Positions 2,731 to 42,000 of a stretch of DNA of 64,000 nt are shown one piece after another. A program made the position numbers and the translations under genes. The notes beneath the pieces are model-generated. The model made no database searches, was not told where the DNA came from, and worked only from the letters and a program-made list of their open reading frames with translations. Each line of letters opens with the position of its first letter. Position 1 is the stretch's first letter. Location of the stretch: NCBI GenBank assembly GCA_019054805.1, contig JAHQIY010000017.1:1302001-1366000 (forward strand). Reading direction: 5' to 3'. This DNA is from Brachionus manjavacas (taxonomy: Eukaryota > Rotifera > Eurotatoria > Ploima > Brachionidae).

Positions 2731-4444
2731 TTACATAATAGCACATGCCTCTGAAAAATCTTCATCGTCAAGTTTGGTCAAATGCGTTCCAATAGTCTTA
2801 TTTTTATTGCGATTAGCCTCGTTTATGTAAGATTTCTTAACAATTTTTTGTTTTTGGTTGACTTTAGTTTTAACAATCGAACCAGTTTTATAGGCCTTAT
2901 TTAAACTTTGGGTCTTGGTTTCATTTGACTTGCTAAAAACCCTTAGCAAATATTTCATGTTGGCATTTTTTTTATAACAAGTTGGCACCAAGACATATCT
3001 CCCAGGAGATAAATCAAATTTTCGATTCAATTCTCTCTTATAAACATATTCGCCTGAATTGCCAAAAAATTTCAAGTTTGAATCAGTTAAAACTGGATCA
3101 TTATTCAACAGAGTATAAATGTGAAATCCTAACGCCTCTCTAGAACCTTTAAGTTTGCCAATTTTTTCCCGAATCCTCAGTGTATCTGTTTGCATTAGAG
3201 AAATTACCACTGAGTCAGTTTGACTACAGTTAATCAAATACTTTGGATTTGAGAAAAAGCTTTCTTTTCCTGAATTAATAGAGCCGCCAGCACTCAATCC
3301 AGCTTTCCATTCACCTTTGAACTGTTCACAGTGCCATTCTTTGCATTCAGGTTCATTTATAAAAGGATTATTGTGCACAAAATCTAGATTATTAAAAAAC
3401 TTTAAAAAATCTTCAAACGAAATATAAAATTGTCCATTATTATTGACAGATATCAAATTGAGTTTGTTCTTAATATTTTCTGGCACATCATTCCATTCTT
3501 GTGAGTTCCAAGCCCATCTACCAGTCCAAGATATTTCATGACCCCATGGATTCCTCAATCTTGTTTTAAATTTTAATAGAAAAAATTTAAAAAAATCTAA
3601 ATCTACTTTATCAGACGAGTTTTTGATTTATTAGATAAACTTTCAAACTCAACAGCATCCAAAACAGCGTAAGTATGACCAGTTCTTAGTTTATTTTCTA
3701 AAATAAGTTCTGATTTTTCATCTTTAGGAAGATCAATGGCACATCCAGCCATTGATTTGCAATCAAGAAATTTAACAGCATCAATCCATAATTGATCCTG
3801 GTCTAATATAGTTTTTAAATTAAAATTTTGATGAAGTCCACCTGTCAGGTCAGTAAGAGAATCATTTATTTCACCACTTATCAGATTAAAATAGCATCTA
3901 TTTAATTTTGCATATGCCTTTTCCAACAGGGGTCCATACATTTCATTTGGGTGTTTTAAATTTCGACAAAAAACAAGTTTGTCATTTTTCACTGGAAGTC
4001 GATCATCGACCACTACTTGAACCCATTCACCGAAATGCCAAAACTGAAACATGAATATGGCAGCATAATTTGTAGTGAAATTTTGTTCTTTTGGGACTAT
4101 TCTGTTAAAAAAGTCTTGGCTAGTTGAAATTTCTGTAATACCGGAAATTAGCCAGCTTAAAAAAATTAAAGTTATTTTAAAAATTTTGTTTGTTTTATTT
4201 GTTAATACCAGTCACCAAGCTCGCCTTGATTTATAAACCAAGATGGATTTTCTTCAACTAGAAAAATTGGATCTGAGAAAAGTACGAATGGACGCTTCCA
4301 GCTGTAGCCATCACCATCGTTTGTTTTGTTTGAAATTGAAAACTTGTTTGCCGGAAATGTGTTATCTTCGAATAAAATTTTATTCTGCAAACAATTTTTT
4401 TTTAATTCATTATAATTTTGATTAAGGAATAATTTTGCTGTCAT
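2731..4444 (-). CDS. Calpain-family cysteine protease (atypical, no EF-hand domain)
   Basis: Three exons: 4444-4209, 4155-3607 and 3559-2731, joined at GT/AG sites, giving about 537 residues. Calpains are intracellular Ca2+-regulated cysteine proteases. The N-terminus has the family landmarks WKRP and NQGELGD. The first splice rebuilds GDCW with catalytic Cys79. RTGHTYAV supplies His239, and the second splice rebuilds RLIKLRNPWG with Asn265, so the triad is complete. The region after about residue 400 corresponds to the C2-like domain. It ends in a Lys-rich tail (about 450-530) rather than a penta-EF-hand domain, so it is an atypical calpain. The N-terminal anchor before Cys79 is shorter than in classical calpains (Cys near 105). 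Intergenic DNA on both sides (1532-2730, 4445-6046) is AT-rich with no other gene seen. Confidence 0.9.
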
Positions 4445-22931: not shown

Positions 22932-23785
22932 ATGGTCGAAGGATTTAGAGTAAATTTGGTAATGTTGTGTTTCCTAGTGCTGGCGTTGTCGGTAAAGGAT
23001 CTGCTTTTGATAAGCCCTAGTACAGTCGAGCAGGCAAAATCGGAATCGGCCTCTGTTGAACCAGCGCCCAATGTTCAGACTGAGGCGACGGAGCAAGCCG
23101 AGGCCGACAACGAGTCGGAAAGCTTCGACACAAATTTCGGTGAAGAAGATGTGCAGAAAAAAATACCCTCACTTAAAATGAAAAGCAACCAGCAAACAAT
23201 TAAATTTCTTTACTGGTAATTATTTTTTTAAATGGAAAAAAATTAAAGTTTTAAAAATTTTTATTCAAGTTTTTCATGCGGGTACAAAAATGCTTTCGAA
23301 CAGTACTCTCAGTTGATCCAGTCAAGATTTCCGGACATAAGCATAGCTGGTGAGAACTACTCGCCCGGAACCCATCGTTTAATTATGGCTCAGGCTTTGA
23401 GCGTTCTAAAGATGATCCTAATCGGCTTTATCATATCGGGCTCTAGTCCGTTCGCCTACTTTAACATGGCCCCGCCCAGTATGTTCACTTGGGCTACCCA
23501 AAATAAAGTACGATTTAATTTAATAGAAAAAAAATTTAATTTTTTTTCATTTTTTAGTTTTATTCTTGTATTATGATTTTTTTTCTCTCAAATGCTATTG
23601 AGACAAGCTTGATTAGTAGTGGTGCGTTTGAGATCTATCTAAATGGCATTCAAATTTGGTCCAAGCTGGAGAGTGACAGAATGCCACACGAGAAAGAGTT
23701 GATGCAAATTTTAGACATGAATTTTAATTTTGAATCGGAAAAAAACTCCGCATTCGGTACTGGAAATGCAAACGGAAAATTCTAA
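22932..23785 (+). CDS. SELENOT: Selenoprotein T homologue with Cys in place of Sec
   Basis: Exons 22932-23215, 23270-23507 and 23558-23785 give about 249 residues. SELENOT is an ER-membrane thioredoxin-like oxidoreductase. The protein starts with a hydrophobic leader (LVMLCFLVLALSVKDLLLI), then an acidic linker. Family blocks follow: GYKNAFEQYSQLIQSRFPDI, ENYSPGTHR, MILIGFIISGSSPF, FFLSNAIE, SSGAFEI and WSKLESDRMP. The first splice joins TG|T, producing the redox motif C95-F-S-C98-G-Y. Vertebrate SELENOT has CVSUGY with selenocysteine at the second position; here a TGC Cys codon is used, so no SECIS is needed. The acidic linker before the thioredoxin fold is longer than in vertebrates. Confidence 0.92.
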
Positions 23786-23895: not shown

Positions 23896-24546
23896 TTATT
23901 CACAAATCAATTCATTGAAAACAGTGGTTTTAGAGTAACAATCAGGTGACGATTTTCTATTCTTTATTGCTTTGAGTATTTTAATATCATCTTCATCTAA
24001 TTCCTCGATAATAGGTTTACTCTTTTTATTACTACTTGGAATAAACTCGCTTATTTCTTTAGCCTTTAAAGAATCGACAACAATTACACAAACAATTGGT
24101 TGGTTGCATTGTGGATGACTATTTACTCTATCATTGGCATTTCTTTGACTTTGGTTCTGGCTGGAATTTTGCATTCTATCATCAGAATTTGAATTGGAAT
24201 TGTTGAAGTTAGAATTATTGTTTTGATTGTTGAAATTAGAGTTATTGGGCATGTTATTTTGGTTATTAACATTTGGATTATTGCTCATATTATTTTGGTT
24301 ATTAAAATTAGGATTCCTTGGCACATTGTTTTGGTTATTGAAATTGGAGTTTGGCAAATTGTTGGAGTTAAAATTATTAGGATTATTGAAGCCTGGTCCA
24401 TTGTTTTGTCCAAAATTTTGACTTGAGTTGAAATTGGAAGAAGGAGGTGGCACATTTTGATTCGGATTAGAGTTGGGTCCATTGAAGCTACGCTGGTCAT
24501 TTGAGCCACGATCTGACTTCTTTCTCTTGGATTTTAAAGCTCCCAT
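23896..24546 (-). CDS. Met-Gly cluster protein A: Asn-rich, predicted N-myristoylated
   Basis: Intronless, 216 residues. The N-terminus MGALKSKRKKSDRGS has Gly2, Ser6 and Lys7, the N-myristoyltransferase rule, plus a polybasic patch that would help hold it to membranes. Residues about 20-135 are Asn/Gln-rich with imperfect NNQNNMPNNSNFNNQ repeats. The C-terminal third is more ordered in look: PIVCVIVVDSLKAKEISEFI, then an acidic stretch and an end in NELICE. A TATA-like GTATAAAAG lies about 60 bp upstream of the ATG. It is the first of seven same-strand genes with this type of N-terminus. Function unknown. Confidence 0.72.
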   Translation of the reverse strand: MGALKSKRKKSDRGSNDQRSFNGPNSNPNQNVPPPSSNFNSSQNFGQNNGPGFNNPNNFNSNNLPNSNFNNQNNVPRNPNFNNQNNMSNNPNVNNQNNMPNNSNFNNQNNNSNFNNSNSNSDDRMQNSSQNQSQRNANDRVNSHPQCNQPIVCVIVVDSLKAKEISEFIPSSNKKSKPIIEELDEDDIKILKAIKNRKSSPDCYSKTTVFNELICE

Positions 24547-25230
24547 TGTATTTTAGTAATAAATTTCAAAACTCTCATCTGTTTTTTCGGATGTCGTCGC
24601 TTTTATACTCATTAGTCATTACTCTATGTTTATAAACTTGACAAAACGATTCAAGCATCAATGCTTACATCACAAAATATGCATTTTAATTAAAAGGCTT
24701 TGATTTTAGAAGAGTATAGATTGCATAAGTTGGATACATTTTAAATGATACAAATGGTAACTGGTGGTTGTTTAAAATTTATTCTATTTGTTTATAATAA
24801 ATTAGCCTTGTGTAGAAAGTTTATGGTAAAACATCTTGGTAAATGTGTTCATTGGCATTTAAATTGTAAATACTTGGCTCTTTTTTTTTAATTAGTTTTT
24901 TTCAGCTCAATTATAGCTAGCAATTCTGTCATTTTCGTGGGCAAATTTTAATTACGCTGTCCCAAAAAAAAATTGCTTAAAATTTTTCCTATTTAAAATA
25001 TTTTTTTAAACAAGTAATATTGATAATCAATGACAATTGTTTTTTTCTTAATGACAAACATATATTTTGCTCAATTTTTCTTTATGATGAATACACAAAA
25101 TTGATGAAAAATATAAACTTAATTTTTAAATTTGTTTTATTTATTGATAAAAAATTTTAAAAAAAAATTTAAAAATGCATCATTTAGGCTAAAAGATTTT
25201 AATAAGTGATCTATTCTGTTGTTTTAGACT

Positions 25231-25656
25231 TCAGTAAACCAAGTCTTTACAAACGTGAATTTTTTTATATTGTCTTGGCGGAGGTACAGATGGCGCCGTG
25301 TAAACAATTGGCGGAAGTGGCTTAGGTGGTGGAATAGCTACACAGACGACTTGAGATCCTGGTGGTATATTTCGATGATGGAAAGGTGGAACATCTGGGG
25401 GAGGTCCGTAGGGTCCGTAAGAATCCGGTTGTCCATATGGGTTAGGTCCATAATTTGGTGGAGGATTTCGGCCTGGGGGTGGATAATTCGATGATCCATA
25501 TGATCCTGGAGGTGGTGGTGGCGGATAATTCGAATTTGGTGGATGGTTGGAATTTGGTGGATAGTTGGGATTTGGTGGATAGTTGGAATTTGGTGGGTAG
25601 TTTGGTGGTGGAGCTGATGCTGCTTTCTTCTTTTTCTTGGAACTTCTCAAACCCAT
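25231..25656 (-). CDS. Met-Gly cluster protein B: Pro/Tyr-rich, predicted N-myristoylated
   Basis: Intronless, 141 residues. MGLRSSKKKKKAASA has Gly2, Ser6, Lys7 and five consecutive Lys. It is followed by NYPPNSNYPPNPNYPP-type repeats (about 18-70) and a Pro-rich body. A short block QVVCVAIPPPKP (about 105-116) resembles PIVCVIVVD in protein A, the only internal similarity I could see between them. It ends CKDLVY. An AG acceptor just before the ATG leaves room for a 5'UTR intron. Function unknown. DNA between it and protein A (24,547-25,230) is non-coding. Confidence 0.7.
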   Translation of the reverse strand: MGLRSSKKKKKAASAPPPNYPPNSNYPPNPNYPPNSNHPPNSNYPPPPPPGSYGSSNYPPPGRNPPPNYGPNPYGQPDSYGPYGPPPDVPPFHHRNIPPGSQVVCVAIPPPKPLPPIVYTAPSVPPPRQYKKIHVCKDLVY

Positions 25657-27839
25657 TTCTAATTATCTAAAAGAAATACAAAATGATATATTTTTCTATT
25701 TTGAAAAACTTAACTTGACAGAATCATTAGATGTGAAACGTTTAAATAGTATATTGCAGTAATTGAATTTTACCTGAAACGCTAGTTCTCTTTCTAGTAT
25801 GATGTTTGATTATTTAAACACTTTCATTCATGCAAAAAAATACAATTAAGATCTAAATATTTCAGTTGAGCATTATGCCCAGGTTTATGCTGTAGATTCT
25901 CCTGTCGCTACATTTCTTTTATTCATTTTAACAATGAGTCGATTTTTAAACATACAATTAAAGTTTTGGATTTTTTTATTCTTTCATTATTTATTTTTTG
26001 TATATATATATATATATATATATACAAAAATTAGGTTTTTTTAAATGGATCAAACAAATTCCTGTACAGAAAATTTTGTTCAATTTGTAATAAATTCTTT
26101 TACAAAAAAGATAATTTTTTTTTCGAATAAAAAAGGCAATTTTTTAATTATTTTATGTGTCCATTATATTTTTTAAATTTAACTAAAGCTATAATATTAA
26201 AATAGAATTGACGGTTTTAAAAAAATTTAATTAAAATCTTTACAAGTTATTATTTGATTTTTTTAAGACATTTTTTTTCAATTATTCTTTTAATTGAAAC
26301 AATTTGTTACTAATATTTTCTGGTTACTTAAATAAAAAAATAAAATTAATTTATTTTAGCAATTGGAGGAACTAGTCGATTCATTTAGGCTATTGTTAAG
26401 TCTCAAACACATAAAAAGCAGGAAAAAGTTTACCATAAAGATAATTAAAAAAAATTTCTTAATTAAAAATAAAAAAAAATTTAAATCTATTTTAACAATT
26501 AAAGTACACTCGAATATAATTGATAAAATTTTTGAAATTAAGTTTATGGTTAAAACTAAAGTTTAAATTAATGCAATTTAATTGTAATGATTTTCTATTC
26601 TCATAGTGTTTTGCGGACTTGAATATGGGTGATGCATTCTGCAAAAAAAGTTTTAGTCTTAAATTTTGTTTTTTTTTAGATTATTATTCTGCTTGTGTCA
26701 ATTATTCTCAAAAAAATTAGAAAAGTTTTTTAATAAATATCCTTATTTTCTTTTTAAAACTTTTATTTAATAACCCAGATTTTTAAGGACACTTTAAATG
26801 TTATACACAAGTTAGGTACCATAGAATTCCAGCTTAAAGCTGAGGTTAAGGCTAAATTTTGTTGATAAGTGCTATCAAACGAACCTTCCATATTTTGTCT
26901 GTTTTTAGATTCCTATTATTTACGATCATAGTTGAAATAATCTCAATTTTTTTGTTCTAAATATTTTTATTTTTTCCCATCTTATTAACAAACTCTAACC
27001 AAATTACCTGCTTATATTTTTTAATATTGAAAAATTCCTCAGCATTTGGTTTCCTGTTTTTTTTTTTAGGTTTACTAAACTAATAAATTTTTTAAGAGAT
27101 GAGCTTCCAAGGTTGTTCCGAAACAAGGCCTTTGTCTTTCATATTTTTTTTATTAAGTTCTTTTTATAATCCTTTTTTTTTTTCAACTTTTTTTGTATCA
27201 AAATAAAAGATTAAAATTAGATAAAATTAAAAACAAATTTGAGAATACGAGATAGTGGAGTAATAAATGGTTGATAGAATGAGGACAATAATTTAATAGA
27301 AGAACTTTGAAGGGTTTGGAGAAGGTAAGTTTTTTAAATCTTTGCTGGATTGTTTCTAAGTTATAAAGAATTGAATATTTGAGAGATGGAGAGAAAATTT
27401 TGGTATTATTCTAAGAGCATTTGTTTGAGTAGACTATAATAGCTATAATAACAGTTTAATTTATATTTTCTTTAATTAAATTTTTCAAAAAATTAATCAA
27501 ATAAGTTCGCATCCAAACTCACATACTAATCTTTTAAGATGGCGAAGATTTTATCTCTCAAACAACCATTGTATCTCTGAAAAGTATTTTACAAATATTA
27601 TTTTTTTTTAATTTCTTTATCATTTTAACCCTGCTATTCAAATTTCCTAAAAAATATATTTTTCTTAAAAATATTTTTATTATTATTAAAAATTTAATAC
27701 AACTTGGCTTCAAAAACTTTAAAAAGTTAGAAAATTCTGTAAGATTGACTTATTCAAAAACAAACTAGATAACATATTGAGTGACTAATATTGCTTACAG
27801 TCTGATTAATCCAGACTTCACGCATAAGCGTAGCAATTA

Positions 27840-27876
<37 letters not shown>

Positions 27877-28255
27877 GATAAAAAATCGATAAGAAATAAA
27901 TCAGATTATAAATTCCTTTAAGTTAATTAAAAATTCATTTGTATATGAGTAATAAATGTTTTTTCAATTTTTTTATTGTCGAAAATAGAGAATTGAACAA
28001 TTTTTTTACCTAAAAAAAATATTATGATGCTAATAGGATCTAATTAAATTTAATTAATAAAAATATATAAAACCTCTAGAGTATTTTAAATAATTTTAAA
28101 ATTTAAATCTAAGTTAAAAGAATGTAGATAAATTACATTAAATAAATATGTGTAGAAAAGCCTGTGGCTTTAAATTTAATTATCTATTTTTAAAATTAAA
28201 CTGCCATCTAAAATTAAGTTAACATTGTTAAGACGTTTATTGATAGTTTATTTAA
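25657..28255. other. Non-coding AT-rich stretch with microsatellites
   Basis: A (TA)n tract at 26,001-26,026 and an (ATT)n tract at 27,842-27,875, the latter just after a GC-richer segment (CTTCACGCATAAGCGTAGC) that looks like a retroelement 3' end. No gene is supported. Confidence 0.5.
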
Positions 28256-28711
28256 CTAGAAAAAATTTCCAATTGGCATTACAGGAGAGAAGTCACAAGG
28301 ATTTGACCACGCTGAGCCCATTGATCCAAATTCAAAACTATTACACCCGTATCCATAGCCGAAGTTATTAAATGAGTTCCATGCATTCCAGTCAATCACT
28401 GGAAAAGAAGCCATAGGCATGAATCCAATAGGTGATATGAAAGGATCATCTTGTAATCGACAGCCTCTGTAATTCCTGTTTCCAAAATCATCATCCAAAT
28501 CAGAATCAGAATCATAATCTTCATATTTTGACTTTCTTGGGCCCGGTCGAGGGTATCTTGAATACGGATCTTGGGGATTATACCTTGAATACGGATCTTG
28601 GGGATTGTGTCTTGAATTGGGGTCTTTAGGATATAAAGGAGGTGATAAGGGCCCTGGAGGTGGTGGAGGTGATTTGGGCACTTTTTTTCTTCTGGAAACC
28701 TTAGAACCCAT
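28256..28711 (-). CDS. Met-Gly cluster protein C: Pro/Asp-rich, predicted N-myristoylated
   Basis: Intronless, 151 residues. MGSKVSRRKKVPKSP has Gly2, Ser6, Arg7 and a basic patch, then a polyproline run. Tandem repeats of about nine residues (NPQDPYSRY) sit at about 35-55. An acidic Asp/Ser stretch (YDSDSDLDDDF, about 66-76) follows. The C-terminal half is rich in Phe, Tyr, Trp, Gly and Asn (FGYGYGCNSFEFGSMGSAW). The N-terminus is very close to that of protein E (MGSRVSRKKS), so these two are likely recent paralogues. TATA-like CTATTTAAGC lies about 45 bp upstream. Function unknown. Confidence 0.72.
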   Translation of the reverse strand: MGSKVSRRKKVPKSPPPPPGPLSPPLYPKDPNSRHNPQDPYSRYNPQDPYSRYPRPGPRKSKYEDYDSDSDLDDDFGNRNYRGCRLQDDPFISPIGFMPMASFPVIDWNAWNSFNNFGYGYGCNSFEFGSMGSAWSNPCDFSPVMPIGNFF

Positions 28712-30380
28712 GATGCTGTTTATTTTCTTCGATTTTGCTTGGTATTGCTTAAATAGAGTTTCAGCTGTGACTAAAAGAATCTAGAAATAAAATTTTTATA
28801 ATGGGAAAAAGCACTTGCGTTTTCATATTCGACTCAATCAAATCGAATTTATTTAGGTAAAGATAATTTTTTTATATAATTTTGTCTTTTAATGCAATAT
28901 TTGCTCATCGAAAGATTCAATTTATTTTTTATATTCTGGTTTTTTCTAAGCATGACTTACCAAATAAATCAAGTTTAGGTTCTGGTTTATTTTTTGATTC
29001 GAAAATAAATTAATAAATATTGATTGAGCTTAATTTTTTTTTATTTGGAATAAGTATATCTCATATTCAAATAAATTTAAATTTTTGAATTTATAATTTT
29101 CGATTGCCAATTATTGAGAAAAGATGTATAAGGCCGAATAGTTCGAAAATTAAATACGAAAAATCAGTCGAAATTGTGAGAATAACTTCTTCAAAAGATT
29201 AAAAGTAATGATAATTTTTTTACTTTAATACTGATTTAATAAGATTGATTTTTAGATTTTTTTTATAAAGAATTAAATACATAATTAGTCAGCAGTATTG
29301 AAACATGCCATTCAAAAATTAGCACCTTTCAAATCTTCGAATAGATTTTAATGATTAATTAGCAAAAAGATTTTCACATTTAATTTTTTAAATTTCATAG
29401 GAAAAATTACGGTTCGTTGAATTTTGCAGGCTAACTCAATATTTTCATCTCAACATTTTCTCTTTTAATTATTAAATATTTTTTTAAATTAAAAATATTC
29501 TCTTTTTCTAAAATCATTAAAAAATTTTATTTCTTTAATTTAAATTTCTTAAAATGTATTTAAATAAGCAAAAGAATAATCTGAAATTGATCTATTAAAG
29601 GTTTGTAAAGGTTTTCCCATTTCTGATTAATTATGTTAAGTCTTGAATTACAGCACTTTATTATATAAACTTCTTTTGGGTACTTAATAATCAAGTTTTC
29701 AAGATTTCCTATTTTATTTTAAAAAAAAGTAGCCAAATCATGGCAAATTGAAGTCTATGATCAAATTTCAAATCAAAATTTTTAGTTTTTGGTTTAAAAA
29801 AAAGGTTTTTTATCTATTTTTTAAATTTAAAATTTTTAATTTTTGTTAAACATGATTTGTTTAATCTTTAATTAGGAAAAAATTATATGAAATTTTATCT
29901 GAATTTATAATTTTTAATTTTGCAATACAAAATTTAACTTTTTTTCACTGTAATATATTTTGATTAATATTAAAAAATCATTTTATGCCATAATTTGGAT
30001 GCTTTAATGTGGATTTTAAATTTGTGTTTAAAATTTTCAAATTAATATTTTACAAAAATCAATTAAAGATCAATTGGGAAAAAAATTTTTTTTTTTACTA
30101 AATTAAGATAATAAACATTTTTTGTTAAATAAAAAATATTTTAAAAAAGCTCATTTCATATTTGTTATTAAGATTCTAATCTATTAAGTTTTTATCATGT
30201 GATCATGATCATGAACTTGTTATAAATCAGTCTGTCTTGCCAAATTCTATCAGTAGCTAGTATATGTCGAAATGCTAATAACATATATTTTTGAGGGCAC
30301 TGAGTTTGAGAAGTTTTTTTAGGGATCAAAGTTATACTTTTTTTTATTTTTTTTATTTCAAAATTTTATTTTACAATATT

Positions 30381-30420
<40 letters not shown>

Positions 30421-32280
30421 AAAATTACAAAGCTAAAAAGAGTCTTTCTTATTAACTTTTCTAAAAATAAATTCAAGGTAAAAATTTATAAAAATTTAAT
30501 TTTTTCTTTTTTATTCTTGAAATTACATCTTTACACAATTCATATTAAATAGATGATTTTTTCAAATAGAGTTTCTTTTAGTATATTTTTTAACATTAGG
30601 TGGTAAATTCTAATAATAAAAAAATAAATAAAGTATAATAAGTAATTGCATTGCAGATTTCACAATTTTTTAAGCTCCAAAAAACAAATTTTTAAATCTT
30701 AAAAAAGAGGATCCGCGTGTAATCTTGCATATGATAAAATTACGCATTTAAAATATTTTGAGCATTTTTGAAATTTTGAAATTTGATCATTTACAATTAC
30801 ACATTATTAATCAGAGCAAATTTTACTTTGCTACCATATCTTATTTAATTAAACCAGAGTTGCTTAAAAGTCACAAGTCTCAAGTCAAGTCCAAGTCCGA
30901 ACTTTTTTTTCAAAAATCCGGTTTTGAATTTTATTTTATTTGTTTCACGATAAATATAATAACTAGCAAAAATTCTTTAAGCATTTTAAGATAATAAATT
31001 GTCTTAATCTTGATGACTCGACGTTCCGGGATTCCAAAATCTCCGGTTTTAAAAATTATTCAAAAAAATCTTCCTATTCTTCTATGAAAAGTAATTATTC
31101 AACTATTTTTCACGTTCAATGAATTTGAAGGGACAGATGAAATTTCTTTCGTTTCAGGAAATGATAATTTTGCGGTCCCAGGTGGTTAATATGGAAGCCA
31201 AGCGAGTGTTGGACTTTTTAGAAAAAAATAAAAAGTCCGGACTTGGACTTTTTTTTAATGATTTGGACTTTAATTTGGGACTGTTAAACAACTCTGAATC
31301 CAACAAAACCTAGTTGAAGACTAAAAGTTGTGGCTAAGATATTTTCAAAGATTTTCCCTTTGTCTATATCTAAATACCCAAAAAAGTCGTAGCCGAAGTT
31401 GAAAGTATGTCAGAGCAAATTATTAAAATAAAATTTTATTCCAGATTGTCCAAAGATGGACAAATTTTCACAGTCAATGCCAACAGCATGCATTGAAATT
31501 TTTAGTCGATGAGGGCAAGTAATGATAAGAAGAAATAAAAGAATAGAAATTCTATCAAAAAATAGGGAGCAAGATTGGTAAGTGAAAGTAAGAAATCATT
31601 AACTGCATGGCGCTTGCTTGCCCTTTTTTCAAAAAGTAAGTTTGGTTTAAGTGGAACAAGAAAAAGATCCTAATGACTCTTTACAATAGAATTTCAGACA
31701 TTATTAAAAGCAAATTAATTAGTAGTTTTTATTTTTTATAAAGTTATTTTTCACTATTAAAAAAAATAAATCATTTTAATCGTCATTTTTGTTTTGAAAT
31801 GATTTATTTCAAAGTTGCAATTTTGTTTTTAATAAAGGTATATTTGAATGACCAAAAATATTTTGCTAGTTTTTGGTAAATTTTTTTTGTTTTCTAAATT
31901 TTAAGGAAAAATAACATCATTTCAAAATGTGCCAAAAATAAGTTCTCATTTAAAACTTTAAAAAAATCCAAACGAAACCATCAAAGTCCAAATATCAAAC
32001 GATAATGGGGCATTATTAACAGATCATTTAAAAATTTTCAATTTAATATCAGATTAACTGAGCCTTTGCAAATGATAACAAGCAAATTAATTTCTCAAAA
32101 TAATTTAATATGAATTCAAAGTGACTCAATAAATATGAATTTTAACAAGTTGTAAAAATTTTTGTTCATCTAGTTTATTTAACATTGGACAAAAAAAATT
32201 AAAAAAAGATTTTACTGTTTAATATTTAAAATATTTTCTCATAATTAATAATTAATAAAAATTGATAATTTTTTTCAACC
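28712..32280. other. Long non-coding stretch
   Basis: No gene supported. It contains a (TA)n tract at about 30,384-30,418 and a full-length dispersed TIR element at 30,855-31,297 (listed separately). The short ORFs within 30.7-31.3 kb are parts of that element. Confidence 0.5.
30855..31297. mobile_element. Non-autonomous TIR element (MITE-like), full length
   Basis: The left end CAGAGTTGCTTAAAAGTCAC and the right end, whose reverse complement begins TTCAGAGTTGTTTAACAGTC, are matching terminal inverted repeats. Both are followed by AAGTCCAAGTC-type subrepeats. About 440 bp, with no transposase. Related ends occur near 20,349, 21,074 and 61,559, so the family is dispersed in this genome. A clear target-site duplication was not seen. 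Confidence 0.75.
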
Positions 32281-33354
32281 TCATTGTTCGACTTCTATTG
32301 TTATTTCATTGTTTACAGCTTTTGGTACCCGAATACTAGATATCATATACTTGGCAGTATTGAGCGGATTTTCCCTATTGTTAAACACCTTAAAATGTAA
32401 TTCATCGACAACTTTTTTCGGTCTCACTGGCTTAGCATAAAAAGTGGTTGGATATTTTTTTTTATTATATCTAGCCAAGACGTGACTTTTCTGAGCTACC
32501 TTAGTAGGTTCAGGTTGAGCTTGATCAAATTTTATATCAGGTATATCCACCCGCTTAAAAGGTTTTAAATTTAGTTTTTTAAGCTTTGGTGGCTTAATTT
32601 TTTCTAACGGAGACTTAGGCTCTTTAAAATCTGATTGTTCTGAATGAGACTTATTGGGTTCATTGCTCATAGCGTTGGATGTCGAATGATGAGAAGATGC
32701 TGGATCATCTTCTGGATTCCAATAAGTGTTTTTCATAATCTGAGCATCTCTGTTTGTCAAATATCTGGGGCGATTTGGATCGACGAAAAATTCAGGATTA
32801 TTCTCGGCCAAAAATTCACCATCAACAAACGGGTCAAAAGCTCTTCTCCGCCTAACTCTTCTTCTTGGTCTCCTGCGCATCCTTCGATAGTTATTCATGC
32901 GATCAATATTCGGATTCATTATTGGCCTTGGGCCTTCATGATCAATGTAACGAGGGTCCGGATGCTGAAACGGATCCTGTGGGTAACCTTCTGGGGGAAA
33001 GCTGATGTGCTCATTGTATCCATTATCATGCGGACTTGGATAATGGTTATTCATTTGATTATTTTGGTTAAAGTTGTTATGTGGATTAAAATGATTGTTA
33101 TTATGGTGATTGTGGTGGTTGTGGTGGTTGTGGTGATTGTGGTGATTGTGGTGATTGTGGTGATTGTGATTATTTGCTCTGTGGTTCCAATGATTATGAT
33201 GTCCGTGGTTGTGACGATTTAGGTTAAATTGATTTTGATTGCTCATGTGATCGTTGTGTCCATGGTTGTTGTAATTGTTATAATTTTGATTCTGAAATAG
33301 ATTATTGGGAAATGGGGTGGAACTTTCACCTGATTTGGATTTTTTTCCGCCCAT
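32281..33354 (-). CDS. Met-Gly cluster protein D: His/Asn-repeat, Arg-rich, predicted N-myristoylated
   Basis: Intronless, 357 residues, the largest of the set. MGGKKSKSGESST has Gly2, Ser6 and Lys7. Residues about 30-105 are Asn/His-rich, with seven or more uninterrupted NHH triplets at about 62-90, a plausible Zn/Cu/Ni-binding tract. An Arg-rich block at about 155-172 (RRMRRRPRRRVRRRR) follows. The C-terminal part (about 235-357) is less repetitive: Lys/Pro-rich, then a beta-like ending ITIEVEQ. TATA-like GTTTATAAAG lies about 100 bp upstream. Function unknown. The plus-strand frame through the repeat is only a shadow. Confidence 0.72.
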   Translation of the reverse strand: MGGKKSKSGESSTPFPNNLFQNQNYNNYNNHGHNDHMSNQNQFNLNRHNHGHHNHWNHRANNHNHHNHHNHHNHHNHHNHHNHHNNNHFNPHNNFNQNNQMNNHYPSPHDNGYNEHISFPPEGYPQDPFQHPDPRYIDHEGPRPIMNPNIDRMNNYRRMRRRPRRRVRRRRAFDPFVDGEFLAENNPEFFVDPNRPRYLTNRDAQIMKNTYWNPEDDPASSHHSTSNAMSNEPNKSHSEQSDFKEPKSPLEKIKPPKLKKLNLKPFKRVDIPDIKFDQAQPEPTKVAQKSHVLARYNKKKYPTTFYAKPVRPKKVVDELHFKVFNNRENPLNTAKYMISSIRVPKAVNNEITIEVEQ

Positions 33355-36289
33355 TTTTAAAATTTATTTTTACGAAAGAAAAAAAATTAGTTGTAAAACA
33401 TATTTAAATCATTTTAAGAAAGTTATTTTTGTAAAAATATATTCTTTATAAACACATATTGTTTTGTCAAATAAGCTAATAGCTCTGGCTCGAATTAGTT
33501 CTTTTATAAAGAAGCTAATATTATGCGTCATATTTCAAGCGTGGAAAATATGCCAACTTTGGTACTATGTTTGTTTGATTTAGAGAATTAAATTTCTTCA
33601 ATATTGAATATTTTTTAATACTTTATAAAAATATAAATTGTGATGTAATAATCACTGAATGCTTGTAAACTAGCCTCTTTCTTACTTTAAAAATAAAAAT
33701 TTAAATTTCTAATTTTATTTTATTTATTTGTAATATCAAAAATTATTTAAACTACTTCCTAACTTTGGTTCCTCTAAATTAAGAGTATATCATAAAATCT
33801 TTTTTTGGTCAATAATTTAAAAAAATCTTAAAAAAACTGTAATTTATTAAAATTTACGGTTTTTCAAATAAATAAACAAAAAAATTAAGCATTTTTTGCA
33901 TACCATAATTCCAATTCAGCATTTGTTTTAAACTTTTTAATAATATCAAGATTATAAATTAAATTAAATTAAATGAAAATATTCTTTATTCTTATATAAA
34001 TCAGCTGATTCAAATCTAATCTAAATGCAAAAAAAAATACAAACATTTAATTTTTGATGAGAATTTTTTCTTGTTTTAGATAATTCTCTGTTTACTTTTT
34101 AGGTAATAATCTTTTTTTGTTAAATACCATTTTAGTAAAAGATTTTTTTTTAATTTTTAAATAAATTTATATACAAAAGACAATTATCTACTAAAAACAT
34201 TAAATGAGTACAATTTTTAATCAAACCCTAACCTCTTCTCGTTTTTAAGTTTTAAATATTTAAGTAAATTTATTAATAAAACATTTACTTATTAAAGCTT
34301 TTTAAGTATTCTTTTTTTAGATTTAAATCTGGCAAATTGTATTTGAATACCAAATTCTCATGATCACGCTCAAAATTATCAAAAAAAGATTTTTAAGAAT
34401 TTTAAACCAAAAAATAAAGAGAAGCAGAGATACATGTGTAGCAAATCATGTTAAACTACACCATGGTATTGTGAAATTTTTGCAGAGGACCGCATAAATG
34501 AAAGATTAAAATTGAATGTTTTCTTTGAAAATATGGTCCTGAAGTAAAATTCAAAATTTTTAATACATCTTTTGAGTGATAATTTCTGAGCGTGATTATG
34601 AAAATTTGATAATTATTGTAATTTACCTTAAATTTTAATGTTTTTTAAATATTCTTTTGAATAAAAGGCTTTAGATGACATTAATAAAAATAATAATAAA
34701 AATCCAACTTTAAAAAAATGTTAATTTTGCATTACAATTATTATTAAAATTTTAGATAAATTTCATGGGTGGTAAAATGTCTGACCCAATGCTCAAATAT
34801 TTAACGACTGTTCATTTTCAGAATTAAAATGATTTTTACTTCGAAAAGACAATAAAAAAACTAAAAAATTCCTTTGTAAAGTCATGTGATTTAATAAAAG
34901 AAGCTCTGCATCAGGTAGATAGATCCAAAGGAAATCTAGCTTCATTTACAAAAACATTGAAAGTTTGTCTTTTTCATTTGGAGAACAAAAAATAAAATTT
35001 TGACAAAAAAATAAAATTATAATCATAATTTTACAGTTATTTTTTAATTTTTTTCCAATTTTTTGAATTTTAAATTGGCAATTTATTATATTACAAATTA
35101 TTCGAAATTTATTCAAAACAAAGATTAGAATTTTTAATGTAAATTGAACTGACTTTACAGAGAAAAGAAAATTTTCTTTTAAAAGTATTTTTTAAAAGTC
35201 ATCATCTCAATACAAAATTAGTTTTTTAAATAAGAAATTTTAACCCTTATTTATGGTTTTGTTATATTTGTCGAAATTTTATAGAAAAACTTATGAATAC
35301 TTTTTCTGAAATAAAATTTGGAATATTTATTTTTAAATAAACTTAATTCATATACAGGTGTCAAACCTCAGTAAAAGGGATAAAAATTATCAATCATTGA
35401 TAATTATATAAGTATTTAGTATATAATTTAATTAAGAAAAATTTTTTTATTCAAATTTCCATTAAAATCGATTATGGCTCAATATAGATAATATAATATA
35501 AGATTTAAAAAAATTGATTTATTCTAATTCATGATATAATCATGATTATTAATGATATTTTTCCACTTCTAAAATGTTTATCTATTTATTTAAATATTAT
35601 CTAGGGTTTTAGTCCAAAAAGCATACGAAAAAAAAGTCTTCGCCTATAGCGGCTTTTTGATGAAAAAAAGCATGTTTCTTAAAAGAAAAGCTTATATGAA
35701 TTTAGCAATTTATTACACTAGAAAAAAATTAACTAAAAAGGTATTTTTAATTTTTTTTTAAATATTTATTTGAAACCTTTTATTGTTTAATTGGTGTATT
35801 AAATTTAGTGTCTTTTTTTTATATCGCCAGGTTTGACGTAATCCTAAAAAAAATTATTTTTTTTTAAATGCATGATTGATAAAATATCAAAAAAAAAGAT
35901 TTAACAACTATTGCAAAGCAAATACTTGCTGACAAATGTTAATTATTATTTTATTCATTAAACGCCATTTCCATATCTTTTGATATTAAAAAAGCTAATA
36001 AAATTTAAAATAAAAAAGCAAAATATAAAGTTCAATTTGTTTTATTTAGTCTTGTCCTATTCATTTTATTGAATCTAATTTATAAAATAAAAAATCATTT
36101 TTTACATAATTCATAGCGTATAAATTAAGGAAAAATGATAATTATAAAAATTTAATAGCCGCTTGTTATTAAAATTAGTTTTTTAAAAATTTTGTTTAAT
36201 TAAACTATTTATTCAACTAAAAATAATTTATTTTAATAAAAAAAGAGAGTTTTATATTGAGGATATTTTTGGATTTGACTGAGATTTTT
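33355..36289. other. Non-coding AT-rich stretch
   Basis: No gene supported. The only notable stretch, about 35,610-35,740, is open on the plus strand (reading KKVFAYSGFLMKKSMF) between possible splice sites, but without start or partner exons. Confidence 0.4.
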
Positions 36290-36703
36290 TTAGAGAGGAA
36301 CCATAGATTGATTCAAAAAATCTCTATTATAATCATATCCATAATAATTCATAAAACTAGAATCGAACATGTAGGGGTTTTGGTTATAATTTTGATTAAA
36401 ATTTTGATTAAAATTTTGACCAAAGTTTGGTTGTTCGTCACAAACAACTCGACATCTCCTATTTGGTCGTCTTCTGTGTCTCCTAGGAATCTCATCCTCA
36501 CTACTTGAATAGTCACTCTCATAAGGATGCCTGTTTCGGTGTCTAGGGTTATTACCATGATAACGATCTAAGTGGTCATCGTAGCCAAAATGATCGTGTC
36601 TGCCGCCTGGTCTACGGCCTGGAGGTGGTGGTAATGGCGCTGGAGGCAATGGTGGTGGTGGTGGTGGCGGAGTTGATTTCTTTCTTGAGACTCTACTACC
36701 CAT
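36290..36703 (-). CDS. Met-Gly cluster protein E: Pro/His/Arg-rich, predicted N-myristoylated
   Basis: Intronless, 137 residues. MGSRVSRKKSTPPPP has Gly2, Ser6, Arg7, nearly the same as protein C, then a polyproline run. A Gly/Arg/His segment (about 28-60), an acidic DYSSSEDE (about 63-72), an Arg block (PRRHRRRPNRRCR), four FNQN-type repeats (about 95-108) and a Tyr/Phe-rich end (NYYGYDYNRDF) follow. Layout parallels protein C: polyPro, acidic Ser/Asp, aromatic tail. TATA box TATATAAAG lies about 57 bp upstream. Function unknown. Confidence 0.72.
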   Translation of the reverse strand: MGSRVSRKKSTPPPPPPPLPPAPLPPPPGRRPGGRHDHFGYDDHLDRYHGNNPRHRNRHPYESDYSSSEDEIPRRHRRRPNRRCRVVCDEQPNFGQNFNQNFNQNYNQNPYMFDSSFMNYYGYDYNRDFLNQSMVPL

Positions 36704-37200
36704 TTTTATTTCTTTTCAATAATTCGATGCGATTCATTTTTTTCGTTGATTCTTTATATACTATTTTTTTATTTAATGAATTTTGTTGATTCAATCAGCA
36801 TTTCTACAATTTCAATAGAAATTAAAATAAAAAGATGAGTCGTCGATTGTTTCAACAGCGTATTCATTTCAAATATCCTATTCACAATGTTTTAATGTCT
36901 AAAATAAAATTGAATGCATTTTGTTCCATTAAAATTGAATTTGAAAATTCCTCAAGCGGAACTCCAAATAATTTTACTTAAATTTTAGTGAATCCTATTT
37001 GGTGTCTTTCAGGATTTAAAACAATAAATTTTCCAGAAACATGAATTTTATTAAGAAAAAAAAATATAAAAAAAAAAGAAGAAAAAAATCATAAAAGACT
37101 TGGTTTTTAAGTGTAAAATCCCTTCGCAGTTTTAATGAATCTTTTTTTAAAAAAAAATTTACACATTCTTTTTTAAAAAATTTTTTAACTTGAGAGTTAA

Positions 37201-37872
37201 CTATTCAAAGGGTGGACAAAGTGTCTCTGTGCATGCTGTTGTACAGGCTGGTTGACAAATGGGAACAAATACTGGATTTAAAAGATTGTAAGAGTTAATG
37301 GCATCTAAAGCCAGAAATGTTGGGTCGACTAAAGGCGAATACATTGGTTCAAATGTTGGCAAACAAGCTGGCATACAATTAGAACTACAAATTGAGCAGC
37401 AAAAAGGTCTACAGGATGGTCTACATGAAGGCCCACAACAAGGATCACATCCTGGATTGCAGCAAGGATCGCATCCAGGACCACAGCCTGGTCTACATTC
37501 TGGGCAACAACAAGGATCGCACTCTGGACCACATCCTGGTCTACATTCCGGACAGCAGCAAGGGCCGCATCCCGGACCGCAATCTGGTCCACATGAAGGA
37601 CCACAGCCAGGTCCACAACTAGGTCCACAAGAAGGACCACAGCCAGGTCCACAACTAGGTCCACAAGAAGGACCACAGCTGGGTCCACAACTAGGTCCAC
37701 AAGAAGGACCACATCTGGGTGCACACGAACGGTCCATTGGACCGCAAGATCTATCACGAAAAGGAGGTGGACCGACCTCTTCTCTGACAGGAAAGCAGCC
37801 ACGCTCATCACAATAGGTTCCCGATACAGGAATTGTCGGTAATCTTCTTGGCCTTGTTGGTCTAGTACCCAT
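37201..37872 (-). CDS. Met-Gly cluster protein F: CGP-repeat Cys-rich, predicted N-myristoylated
   Basis: Intronless, 223 residues from the ATG at 37,872; the frame stays open two codons further upstream but that adds no Met. MGTRPTRPRRLP has Gly2, Thr6 and Arg7. Residues about 50-165 are CGPSC/CGPGC/CGPCC tetrapeptide arrays, with Cys about every fourth residue and occasional Arg, Asp or Glu. The end is Cys-rich (QPACTTACTETLCPPFE). Cys-Gly-Pro arrays are the hallmark of Drosophila Mst(3)CGP sperm-tail proteins and occur in mammalian ODF1, where disulfides stiffen the flagellum; a metal-binding or cuticle role is equally possible. TATA-like CTATAAATAA lies about 60 bp upstream. Confidence 0.72.
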   Translation of the reverse strand: MGTRPTRPRRLPTIPVSGTYCDERGCFPVREEVGPPPFRDRSCGPMDRSCAPRCGPSCGPSCGPSCGPSCGPSCGPGCGPSCGPSCGPGCGPSCGPDCGPGCGPCCCPECRPGCGPECDPCCCPECRPGCGPGCDPCCNPGCDPCCGPSCRPSCRPFCCSICSSNCMPACLPTFEPMYSPLVDPTFLALDAINSYNLLNPVFVPICQPACTTACTETLCPPFE

Positions 37873-38233
37873 TACCAATTTAGAATTGATTTCTTAAGAA
37901 ATTTTTTGCTCGATGACATATATTATTTATAGTCTTTCATGAAAAATTTCACTTTGTATACAATTCTGGTATTTTTGTATATAACTTTTTTAGATGTTTA
38001 CAAATTTTTTGTAGTCATTAAATATATTTTTAAATTGATAAAATGTCGCTATATTTAAGCCAAAGAATTCTTATTTAGAATAATTGATTTATTTTGAATT
38101 TTTGTCAAGTGGTGTGATTGTATCTTTAATCAGCCTTTACTGAGTTTGTTTTGTAATAGATTAAAGTTAATTATTAATTAAGCAGTGTTGAAATTTTATT
38201 AAAATTTAATTGTACAAAATGAGAGAAAAAAAT

Positions 38234-39053
38234 CTAATAGACATAAGGTTTTAGCGAAGTAGCTATGTTTTCAATTGGGGTGGTATATGGATCGTATTCA
38301 TCTAGCGGTCCAAATGGTAAATGCTGATCAATTCGTCTAACTGGGCGCGGTTCTGGTCTCATAAATTCTCTTTTTTCTGGCTGAGGTTTAGTGCGACAAT
38401 ATCCGAGCAGAAAATCGTCGAAATTTAGCAAACCATCCATGTCTCTGTCCATAATGGAAAATGCTCTTCGACTGGTTTCAAAATCATGCTGGTACATGTT
38501 CTGAAATTGCTGAAAGTCCATTCTTCCATCAGGTCCACAATTTTTATCGTAAATGCTTCGCACAAAATTTACCTCTTCAGCGGTGACTGTATACTCTTCA
38601 TTTTCTTCATCTCTCGTGCCACAGGGAACACGATAGGCATCTAAAAACAAATAAAATAAAATAAAATTGTCTTTTTTGTTAATCACCTTGAGGAATTCTG
38701 GCTTGATTGTAAGGAGGAAATTGAAGACCCTGTCTTCGGTATTCCTCAATTTCTGTTGGAGTTAAGGGCATTACATTCGGATTGTGGTTTATTTTGTTAA
38801 GTTGTGGAACTCTGTTTTGAGCAAAGTGGGGATTTTGGTAGACTGAATTAATGGGAAAAGATGAGTTATTTGAAGGTGTTGGATAATTGTTAGAAAATTG
38901 CTGATCATATTGCATATCATTTTGATACGGCCATTCATTTTGATACTGATTACCCTGGCTCTGAAATTTCGGATTAGATTGGACTGGAAAATTATGGTTA
39001 TTTGGCGATGGTGGTGTTCTGTTGTTGTAAACTTTGCTCGATCCCGAACCCAT
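38234..39053 (-). CDS. Met-Gly cluster protein G: EF-hand, predicted N-myristoylated
   Basis: Two exons, 39053-38687 and 38640-38234, about 257 residues; the only cluster gene with a coding intron. The ATG at 39,053 is chosen over the upstream in-frame hydrophobic extension because it begins MGSGSSKVYNN (Gly2, Ser6, Lys7) and has TATA-like TTTATAAAC about 60 bp ahead. Residues 10-90 are Asn/Gln/Pro-rich, like proteins A and D. The C-terminal half has two EF-hand loops, DKNCGPDGRMDF (weaker) and DRDMDGLLNFDDF (canonical Asp1, Asp3, Asp5, acidic 12), so it should bind Ca2+. The combination recalls Ca2+-myristoyl switch proteins, but the long N-terminal low-complexity arm is unusual. Ends LKPYVY. 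Confidence 0.78.
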
Positions 39054-42000
39054 AGTCAATTTTTTTTTAAAAAACTTGTTTGTTATGGTTTTTGAGAATA
39101 TGAAGTTTATAAAAATGACAATTATAGCTTCTTTTAATGAAAGCATATATTTTAAATTTAGAAGCTATTTTGTCACAATTTATAATTTAAGTTTTTTTCT
39201 ATTTTATTAAAATTCGTAATAGAGTAAAATAGCTTCTAGCAATTAAAATCGTGGCTAGATGCGACAGAGCATGATAATTAATTATTATTTAAAATTTCAA
39301 AACTTTTTCGTTAAAAAATCTTATTTTTCCTTCAAGTTTTATTTTATAAAAGATAATTAAATTTTTTTATTTTTTTGAAATCTTTTAGTGTTTTTTTTCT
39401 GAATTGATGGCTAGTTTTAATAAATCAATATTTTAACATTGCCATTTAGAATATCTTTGATCAAAATTCAAATAGAAGATTGATAAACAGCTAAATAGGT
39501 CTGGAATTTTTTGAAAAGTGAAGTAAAGAGCAATGATGTGAGAGTAATTTGTATGAAAGTAATAAAATCTGGTCAAAAGGTGCTTTAAATATGACTAACC
39601 AGCAAAAACATTTCTGTTGATTTTTTTTAATTATAAAATTATTTTTTTAAATAATTTCTTCAAAACAGAAAAATCTAATTTGATCCTTTACTAAAAATGA
39701 AAATTAAAAATTTATTTACAACGGTGATTTCTTTTTTTATTTTTTTAACCTTATTTTTAAGCGATATAATTCAAAATATTTAAACTTTTAATTTTTAATT
39801 TTCATTTTTAAATGCAGAGTTAGGTTAGATTTTTCGATTTTTGATCCGGCGTTATTAAAGGTATTTTGAATTTAAAAAAAAGGGAACTTTTTTTACAAAG
39901 GATCGATGGTCACTTATGCATTCACCAAAACAATGGTATTACAACAATGTTGTTTACACTAGGAAAAATTTTAACAAAACATGATACAAACCATTATAAA
40001 AATTTAAAAAATAATTGTCATTTTTATTGTAATTTTAAAAATAAAAAGACAAATAAAAATATTTCAAGCTTTTACGTCAAATTTCGAAATTGCCTCAAAA
40101 ATTTTTGTAAATTTTATTTAAAATTGAATGATCATTTTAACCCAAATTACTAAAATTATATTGTAACGAGTTGATGTTTTATTAATTTTTATTTTTTAAT
40201 TTAATTAGTTTCAAAGTATAATGTAAGTAGATATAAATTATATTGCTACTTGAAGAAATAAAGGAGATTATTTTTTTTTTATAAGACAATATTTTAATTC
40301 GTTGTGAATTAAAGAATTTTTAAAAAAAGTAATTTTTTATTTTTGAAAATTCTAAAATTTATCAAAATTTTATTGACTTAAACAAACAAATCCAATTTCT
40401 GTCAATGTCCTCTAATAGATTCTTTAACTAATATGGAGTTTCGGAATAAACTTAATTTTGAAAAAAAATTCTGGCAATTCAAAGCTAAGAAATTTTTAAA
40501 AGAATCTTATTCAATTCTTATTTTTCTCTTGAACCATCTATTTAACAGGAAATTATAAAGTTTTGACCAAGTTGCAAATAAACACATTTTTAAACAATTT
40601 TTTCATCTAAAGTCGAAAATTGGTTCTGTAAATTGTATAAGCTGACAGATACACTCAATGTGTCACCTTAATCCAGCTTAAAATCAATATGACTGCATTT
40701 TTTTGAATTTTTGCAGATACTGGAATTAGGCGATACAATGAATGTTTAAAATTGATCAAATTCAAAATTCAATCTAAAATTTTACTTTTCCAGATCTTAA
40801 AAAGTTAAAATAATTGAAAAAGTTTTTTAAGCTGTAAACGAGATTAAAACATTTAAGATAACAGTTTAAGACTCTAAGATTTCTTCCCCAGTCTATCTAT
40901 CCTTAAAAGTGCCCGGAGACAATCTGAAAGTTTTATAATTAATTTAATAAATTATAAATTTATAAAATTAGATTTATTTAACTCAATTAAATTTGTTCAT
41001 TACCAAATCATTACATAAATATGATCTAAAATGAAGATACATGAAGTTGTGAAATTCAAAATAATTTTAAATATTTCATTATTTGATAAATTAAAATTAA
41101 AGATTAAAAATTATTTTCAAAAAAATTGAACAATAGTCCAACATACTATGCTGCAATTATTTTTTGTCCAAAATAATTTTTTCCATGAGCTAAATAGAAC
41201 ATTGCCATTTGATTAATGGCAATATGTAGTATGTTGGACTATTGTTCCATTTTTTTGAAAATAATTCTTAATCTTTAATTTTAATTTATCAAAAAGGATA
41301 TTTTTTTTCAAATTGTTCAAAGTTCGTTTTAAAGAAGAAACATTTTTTTTTAAATTCCAAACTTTTCTAGTCCTGAAAATTTGAATCTCAAGTCCTTTTT
41401 CTTTAAACAAGTATGCCCAGTGTGATATATTAAAACGCAATTAATCAAGTAGATGATTAATTGAAAATTTCAAGATTTTTTGCTGTAATTTAATTCTCTG
41501 TGCGAGATTTAGTGGTCAAGCTTAATTGTCCTAGATATTTTTGCTTTAAATAAATTCTTAAAATTTAAAAAGCTTTTTAAAAGTTTAGAGTTCATAATTA
41601 ATCATAATTAAACATATTTTATTATGGATTCAAATTTTTTAAATGGTGGAAGCAACTTGAAAAAAAAACAAACTCAATGAATTCTAGGATTGACCTGAAA
41701 AAAAATGACTCAAATTTTCAAATTTACACTTAAAAAAAGCTAGACTTGACAATTTTGAAACTAACTCAATTTTCGATGATAAAATTCTTTTTCAATTTAC
41801 CCATTTTTTGTCAATTGAGCTTAACTGAATTAATATTGAAAAATTAATTTTTTTTCAATTAGAATTTTGAATTCAGCAAAGGAGTTAAATGATTATTTTT
41901 TTTCCATAGTGCAACCTTTCACCAATTTGTTTCTTCAATTAATGTGTAAAATTTTTGCTTCATTCGGCCAACATACTTGTTACTTTAAATTTAAAATATT

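Follow-up and report, generated by a model that had tools for sequence, protein, structure and literature searches.

Why should seven neighbouring genes encode proteins whose bodies differ so widely, and whose common part is confined to their first few residues? The question is raised by a stretch of 64,000 nucleotides from the rotifer Brachionus manjavacas, hereafter the window, which covers positions 1,302,001 to 1,366,000 of contig JAHQIY010000017.1 (C17:1302001-1366000) in assembly GCA_019054805.1 (114.17 Mb, 61 contigs). Its seven minus-strand genes, numbered g1 to g7 by rising window position, begin MGALKSK, MGLRSSK, MGSKVSR, MGGKKSK, MGSRVSR, MGTRPTR and MGSGSSK, respectively. Both the array and this N-terminal tag can be read directly from the DNA. 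The locus is probably an array of membrane-anchored disordered proteins; as an explanation of the whole, the best available, though tentative, is that a TATA-driven array of such proteins builds the intracytoplasmic lamina, which serves rotifers and acanthocephalans as an intracellular skeleton.

A preliminary description had placed seven minus-strand genes here, assigned glycine at position 2, serine or threonine at 6 and lysine or arginine at 7 to all of them, and held that such a run exceeds chance. All the frames are found where it put them, and the three residues are present in each when read from the MG starts. Within 264 kb (the window plus 100 kb on each side; G+C 27.5%), g1 to g7 are the sole ATG frames of at least 60 amino acids (aa) with this combination, for which local residue use gives an expected per-gene rate of 0.00056. 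All ATGGG frames of at least 20 aa in the window with the residues at 6 and 7 likewise belong to the seven genes; the pattern is matched as well, presumably by chance, in a frame of just 9 residues at 3517 (-). Six of the 84 first-ATG open reading frames (ORFs) of at least 100 aa on both strands of the 264 kb start with MG, and these six are g1 to g6, which occupy nine of the 84 position ranks, the remaining three being frames that overlap g4 or g6. The probability that six random frames would fit a nine-rank span is approximately 1e-5. A genome-wide pattern search gave 101 sites, and 36 of the 100 listed were in-frame matches to MG-x3-[ST]-[KR]3; four of these 36 (g1, g2, g3 and g5) lie in the array, and uniform random placement put four sites within 12.2 kb in none of 5000 trials. 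The claim that the run exceeds chance thus stands.

The tag has the form of a myristoylation signal. From the MG starts, all seven proteins match the PROSITE pattern PS00008, G-{EDRKHPFYW}-x2-[STAGCN]-{P}, the start of g7 being uncertain; this was the prediction that the preliminary description had proposed for all seven. The enzyme itself, N-myristoyltransferase, is encoded in the genome (PF01233, C9:122723-123202, E 1.9e-74), and the pattern together with the presence of the enzyme suggests that the proteins are substrates held on the membrane. A polybasic patch, described earlier for most of the genes, accompanies the tag: residues 3-15 of g1 to g7 hold 6, 6, 6, 3, 4, 4 and 2 lysines or arginines, and those at 7-10 are strong in g1, g2, g3, g5 and g6 and weak in g4 and g7. 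Mean hydropathy from the MG starts lies between -1.60 and -0.15, with every 19-residue window at or below 1.36, which makes a signal peptide or membrane helix unlikely. The dominant residues are asparagine in g1 (27%), proline in g2 (32%), proline and serine in g3, asparagine followed by histidine and proline in g4, proline and arginine in g5, proline and cysteine in g6 (45 cysteines, 20%), and proline and asparagine in g7. A Pfam search of g1 to g6 at E<=1 found no family, save a non-significant hint of CFAP143 in g6 (E 0.47). The picture of low-complexity, cytosolic-type proteins with the N-terminus as their common part is thereby supported, for g7 only from its MG start.

TATAAA stands at -55 to -96 in six of the seven. 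By comparison, it occurs in 8.4% of random 80-base stretches and precedes 5 of 64 ORFs of at least 120 aa outside the array; g2 is without it, having TATTTAA at -92. In all seven genes AATAAA lies no more than 200 bases past the stop, compared with 48% of random 200-base stretches. Six genes have a single coding exon, and g7 is corrected to two exons with an uncertain start (Table 1). Single-exon genes are rare in the annotated genomes of four species of the B. plicatilis complex, at 257 of 11,050, 323 of 12,085, 460 of 12,484 and 12 of 12,547, but not in B. calyciflorus, with 4,321 of 15,628 (PMC6555955). A stretch resembling a 3' splice site ends 10 bases upstream of the g2 ATG, which leaves room there for trans-splicing or for a first exon that is non-coding; a genome search with g2 found no match except g2 itself at E<=1. 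Inside g4 there is also an arginine-rich patch, and its tail is rich in lysine and proline. In the array interval no ORF of at least 120 aa other than the genes was found, bar frames overlapping g4 and g6. Two antisense frames lie over these genes, at 32644-33222 (+; 192 aa) and 37298-37816 (+; 172 aa), and are probably a by-product of repeat codons. By eye, short upstream frames precede g5 (~36698-36740, -) and g6 (~37871-37920, -), with stops that overlap or touch the main start; lying close to the likely transcription start, they may be meaningless. The left neighbour, convergent at 22932-23785 (+), appears by eye to be a selenoprotein T relative, with a redox motif that reads Cys-x-x-Cys after removal of a short intron.

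Table 1. Predicted features of the array and of the multiplied gene on contig C20 (positions on C17 are those of the window; TATAAA distances are relative to the ATG)
Feature	Contig	Position	Strand	MG start	Description
g1	C17	23896..24546	-	24546	216 aa, MGALKSKRKKS, Asn-rich (27% N), single exon
TATAAA of g1	C17	24602..24607	-		-61; second at -88
g2	C17	25231..25656	-	25656	141 aa, MGLRSSKKKKK, Pro/Tyr repeats (32% P), single coding exon
g3	C17	28256..28711	-	28711	151 aa, MGSKVSRRKK, Pro-rich, acidic and Tyr-Gly-Asn regions in order, single exon
TATAAA of g3	C17	28795..28800	-		-89
g4	C17	32281..33354	-	33354	357 aa, MGGKKSK, His-Asn repeats, single exon
TATAAA of g4	C17	33445..33450	-		-96
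g5	C17	36290..36703	-	36703	137 aa, MGSRVSRKK, poly-Pro, Arg-rich and Asn-Tyr regions in order, single exon
TATAAA of g5	C17	36753..36758	-		-55
g6	C17	37201..37872	-	37872	223 aa, MGTRPTRPRR, CGP repeats, 45 Cys (20%), single exon
TATAAA of g6	C17	37926..37931	-		-59
g7	C17	38234..39053	-	39053	257 aa, two exons, MGSGSSK, Asn/Pro/Gln-rich half then EF-hand region
g7 intron	C17	38641..38686	-		46 bases, GT...AG, predicted
TATAAA of g7	C17	39106..39111	-		-58; second at -131
C20 gene copy	C20	157234-157455	-		99-100% identical to the other copies, 74 aa, single-exon, MGSLCSKKKKCC
C20 gene copy	C20	161579-161800	+		as above
C20 gene copy	C20	163878-164099	+		as above

The least certain member of the array is g7. 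Its frame has another ATG at 39146, from which the protein would gain 31 residues, a hydrophobic stretch among them (19-residue mean 1.58). Each ATG has an upstream TATAAA, at -58 and -131 from 39053, the latter 38 bases above the ATG at 39146. The MG start is consequently likely, not certain, and were the upstream ATG used, g7 would be no substrate for myristoylation; an alternative product with a signal-like N-terminus is possible. The EF-hands ascribed to this gene are reduced to one, which lies over the Pfam cut-off in exon 2 (E 6.1e-6), while exon 1 has no Pfam match and no EF-hand. The nearest solved relatives of the region are calsenilin, NCS-1 and calcineurin B, all weak (E 0.002-0.007), the NCS-1 match extending over about 60 residues. 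Neuronal calcium sensors have four EF-hands in about 190 residues. The MGSGSSK start and the stretch nearest calsenilin and NCS-1 recall them, but g7 has a single EF-hand over the cut-off, preceded by approximately 120 residues rich in asparagine, proline and glutamine.

How the array arose can be followed in part. The full-length similarity of g3 and g5 exceeds 1000 of 1000 shuffles, including shuffles within 15-residue blocks; when the first 12 residues are removed it still beats all 1000 plain shuffles, but 43 of 1000 block shuffles score at least as high. Taking the two as clear paralogues along their bodies, on plain-shuffle z scores of 7.7 (4.9 without the first 12 residues), was a view that the stricter shuffles weakened. 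In codons 2-9 all changes between them are synonymous or exchange lysine and arginine, as expected under selection there, while the bodies differ widely. These two genes are likely paralogues by duplication, with borderline body similarity, and for g1 and g2 a duplication is suggested by 14 of 15 identical bases across codons 6-10. The codon for Ser6 is TCC in g1 to g4, against a TCC share of 11.6% among the serines of long local frames. Further pairwise similarities (g1-g4, g1-g2, g1-g7, g2-g4 and g2-g3) may be compositional. No trace of long duplicated DNA units across the array was seen in the 20 largest of 44 repeat families, which are AT-rich or inside genes. The earlier idea of tandem duplication under N-terminal constraint therefore holds as likely for g3 and g5 and as suggested for g1 and g2; for g4, g6 and g7 it can be drawn from place and N-terminus only.

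Comparable genes occur elsewhere in the assembly. Among the 32 in-frame MG-x3-[ST]-[KR]3 sites outside the array, 25 were read, and three of these begin frames that are complete, short and of low complexity: C14:1242541 (61 aa, MG-tagged, rich in cysteine and proline), C14:1312196 (74 aa, MG-tagged, rich in glycine, tyrosine and methionine) and C20:161579 (74 aa, rich in proline and methionine). The two on C14 are approximately 70 kb apart and look unrelated. Cysteine is found in the first six residues of two of the three, suggesting added palmitoylation. The C20 gene is present in three copies in both orientations (Table 1), which on their sequence identity represent a recent local multiplication of an array-type gene. 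Five weak relatives of it (E 0.002-0.008), with open frames of 71-95 aa, lie within 50 kb at C5:737154-786670, possibly another array; among the sites listed, they do not match MG-x3-[ST]-[KR]3. Other sites read were C1:10420780, which is open for 200 codons and not of low complexity, and C10:214616, by eye an EF-hand protein with an intron; the remaining 20 end early, and some may be first exons. A second array at C10:893.7-900.6 kb, proposed from two pattern matches, was rejected, both frames ending within 30 codons. Nor do the weak genome matches of g6 on C1 and C2 look like genes of its build: at C1:4909532-4912537 (-) there is a frame of 1001 aa in which long Gly-Pro-Ser repeats follow a cysteine-rich start, unlike g6, and the C2 locus has no complete ATG ORF of 80 aa.

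The system that the array most recalls is the vertebrate epidermal differentiation complex, which is described as consisting of single-coding-exon genes, mostly preceded by a TATA box, many with a common N-terminal motif (PMC10801484). The same account gives its proteins bodies biased towards glycine, proline or cysteine, with one histidine-rich member and EF-hand members that have a disordered segment (PMC10801484). Clustering, the single coding exon (6/7 here), TATAAA (6/7 here), a common short N-terminus and diverse biased repeat bodies with histidine-rich and EF-hand members are all found in the rotifer array. The differences lie in the N-terminal motif, QCKQPCxPP in the complex as described (PMC10801484), which is absent from g1 to g7, where a myristoylation signal stands instead; in the EF-hand, N-terminal and of S100 type there and on the C-terminal side in g7; and in gene number, with 46 genes in human and 102 in chicken against seven here. 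The resemblance is close in design, and is presented as a likeness only, homology not being claimed. It is possible, though less likely than not, that the array is an independently evolved, lineage-specific rotifer counterpart of this complex, with myristoylation as the address for lamina assembly and cross-linking on the inner side of the apical membrane.

Under the explanation offered here, TATA-driven, mostly single-exon genes, derived at least in part from tandem duplication, would encode cytosolic proteins from which Met1 is removed and to whose Gly2 myristate is added. Myristate and the lysines or arginines at 7-10 would then hold each protein against the inner leaflet of the plasma membrane, from which disordered bodies (asparagine, proline/tyrosine, histidine, arginine, Cys-Gly-Pro or a calcium-binding EF-hand) would extend into the cytosol. 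There, they may cross-link or condense into a layer, through cysteine cross-links, proline/tyrosine and histidine-rich contacts, and calcium binding. This layer would be the intracytoplasmic lamina, a skeleton within the syncytial epidermis; the identification draws on rotifer anatomy and on a resemblance to the cornified-envelope gene clusters of vertebrates, and it is a possibility to be held with reserve. The lamina of the lorica is said to contain a disulfide-rich, keratin-like protein. Keratin-associated and other cysteine-rich cytosolic structural proteins resemble g6 (20% cysteine in CGP repeats, no signal-peptide-like stretch), but g6 has a myristoylation N-terminus, and homology was compared by Pfam only. 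In the body epidermis of a monogonont male, an intracytoplasmic lamina within the syncytial integument has been described (PMC13403294).

Several observations weigh against this reading. A strong polybasic patch is absent from g4 and g7, and g7 may begin 31 residues further up, with a hydrophobic segment and hence without myristoylation. Past the poly-proline, 57 of 1000 plain shuffles and 128 of 1000 block shuffles attain the g3-g5 score, so that these two proteins resemble each other chiefly at the N-terminus and in the poly-proline, their bodies being at most distantly alike; a genome protein search with g5 finds g5 alone, g3 not being returned at E<=1. The CGP repeats, as in g6, recall testis proteins of the fly. 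A promoter motif common to the array, beyond TATA, is borderline at best: the upstream 8-mer most shared is TATA-like (p 1.5e-5) and is matched or surpassed in 2 of 40 random sets, which leaves co-expression unsupported. According to one paper on rotifers the lorica contains chitin (PMC5333405), a misfit with a purely intracellular protein skeleton. Confidence in the membrane-anchored array as such is slightly lowered by the uncertain start of g7 and by bodies of g3 and g5 that are less alike than the plain shuffles had indicated.

The main rival to the lamina is use in sperm or cilia. As a sperm or testis structural cluster, the array would comprise small, TATA-driven genes of one exon each, whose products, male-specific accessory proteins, attach to the membrane of the spermatid or the flagellum. 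With its CGP repeats, 45 cysteines and lack of a signal-peptide-like stretch, g6 resembles the fly CGP-repeat family, the Mst(3)CGP proteins of the sperm tail, of which Mst84D and Mst87F are linked with sperm terms in parts of the literature and share the CGP motif; CFAP143, moreover, is the sole Pfam hint for g6, albeit not significant. In the fly family, however, the CGP repeats run throughout, whereas here they occur in one gene of the seven and are missing from the other six. We also know of no myristoylation tag in the fly CGP proteins, which counts against this origin, and a sperm role is on balance unlikely. The same anchoring would suit other myristoylated structural proteins, in organs that are ciliated or glandular, such as the corona cilia, mastax or pedal glands. 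The same sequence evidence, which names no tissue, speaks for these organs and nothing specific speaks against them; what favours the lamina is its position as a layer inside the cell and near the membrane, and the organs, like sperm, are given a low probability.

Regulators of signalling or of cortical actin, of the MARCKS and BASP1 type, would bind phosphatidylinositol bisphosphate (PIP2) and be released by calcium or phosphorylation, with g7 as the calcium sensor. MARCKS, MARCKS-like proteins and BASP1 have the same MGxxxS[KR] start and basic patch on a disordered body, and the relatives of the g7 EF-hand region named above would agree with such a sensor. No match to these families was found by Pfam at E<=1 in g1 to g6 or in either exon of g7, however, and bodies rich in asparagine, proline, histidine or Cys-Gly-Pro are not effector-domain-like, nor is an effector domain visible; seven structurally dissimilar genes clustered in a row would also be atypical of a signalling family, and this alternative is distinctly improbable. 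That the frames are low-complexity artefacts and not genes is very improbable, for although antisense frames overlap g4 and g6 and repeats open several frames, in random sequence matched to the local composition just one of 14,650 ATGs began a frame of 100 codons, and the common N-terminus and TATA placement favour genes.

CRISPR has been reported to work in B. manjavacas (PMC10395877). A 23-base pattern derived from the mlh3 guide and repair template printed in that paper has exactly one site in the present assembly, free of mismatches, and its reversed control has none, as would be expected of B. manjavacas or a near-identical member of the plicatilis complex. Among the matches listed, the literature on rotifer lorica, lamina and keratin held no report of lamina genes by title, nor was there a paper by title on a myristoylated low-complexity gene cluster in rotifers. 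To our knowledge, the proteins of the intracellular skeleton in rotifers and their kin have not been identified at the gene level. If the array and its relatives on other contigs do encode the lamina, the lorica would be open to genetics, and an intracellular skin armour of disordered proteins with a lipid tag would allow direct comparison with the vertebrate cornified envelope. Should the link to the lamina fall away, seven adjoining genes with one lipid-anchor tag on widely differing bodies would still be a clear instance of selection on the address label and not on the cargo. The array offers concrete candidates, open to testing, for an animal skeleton that is poorly known.

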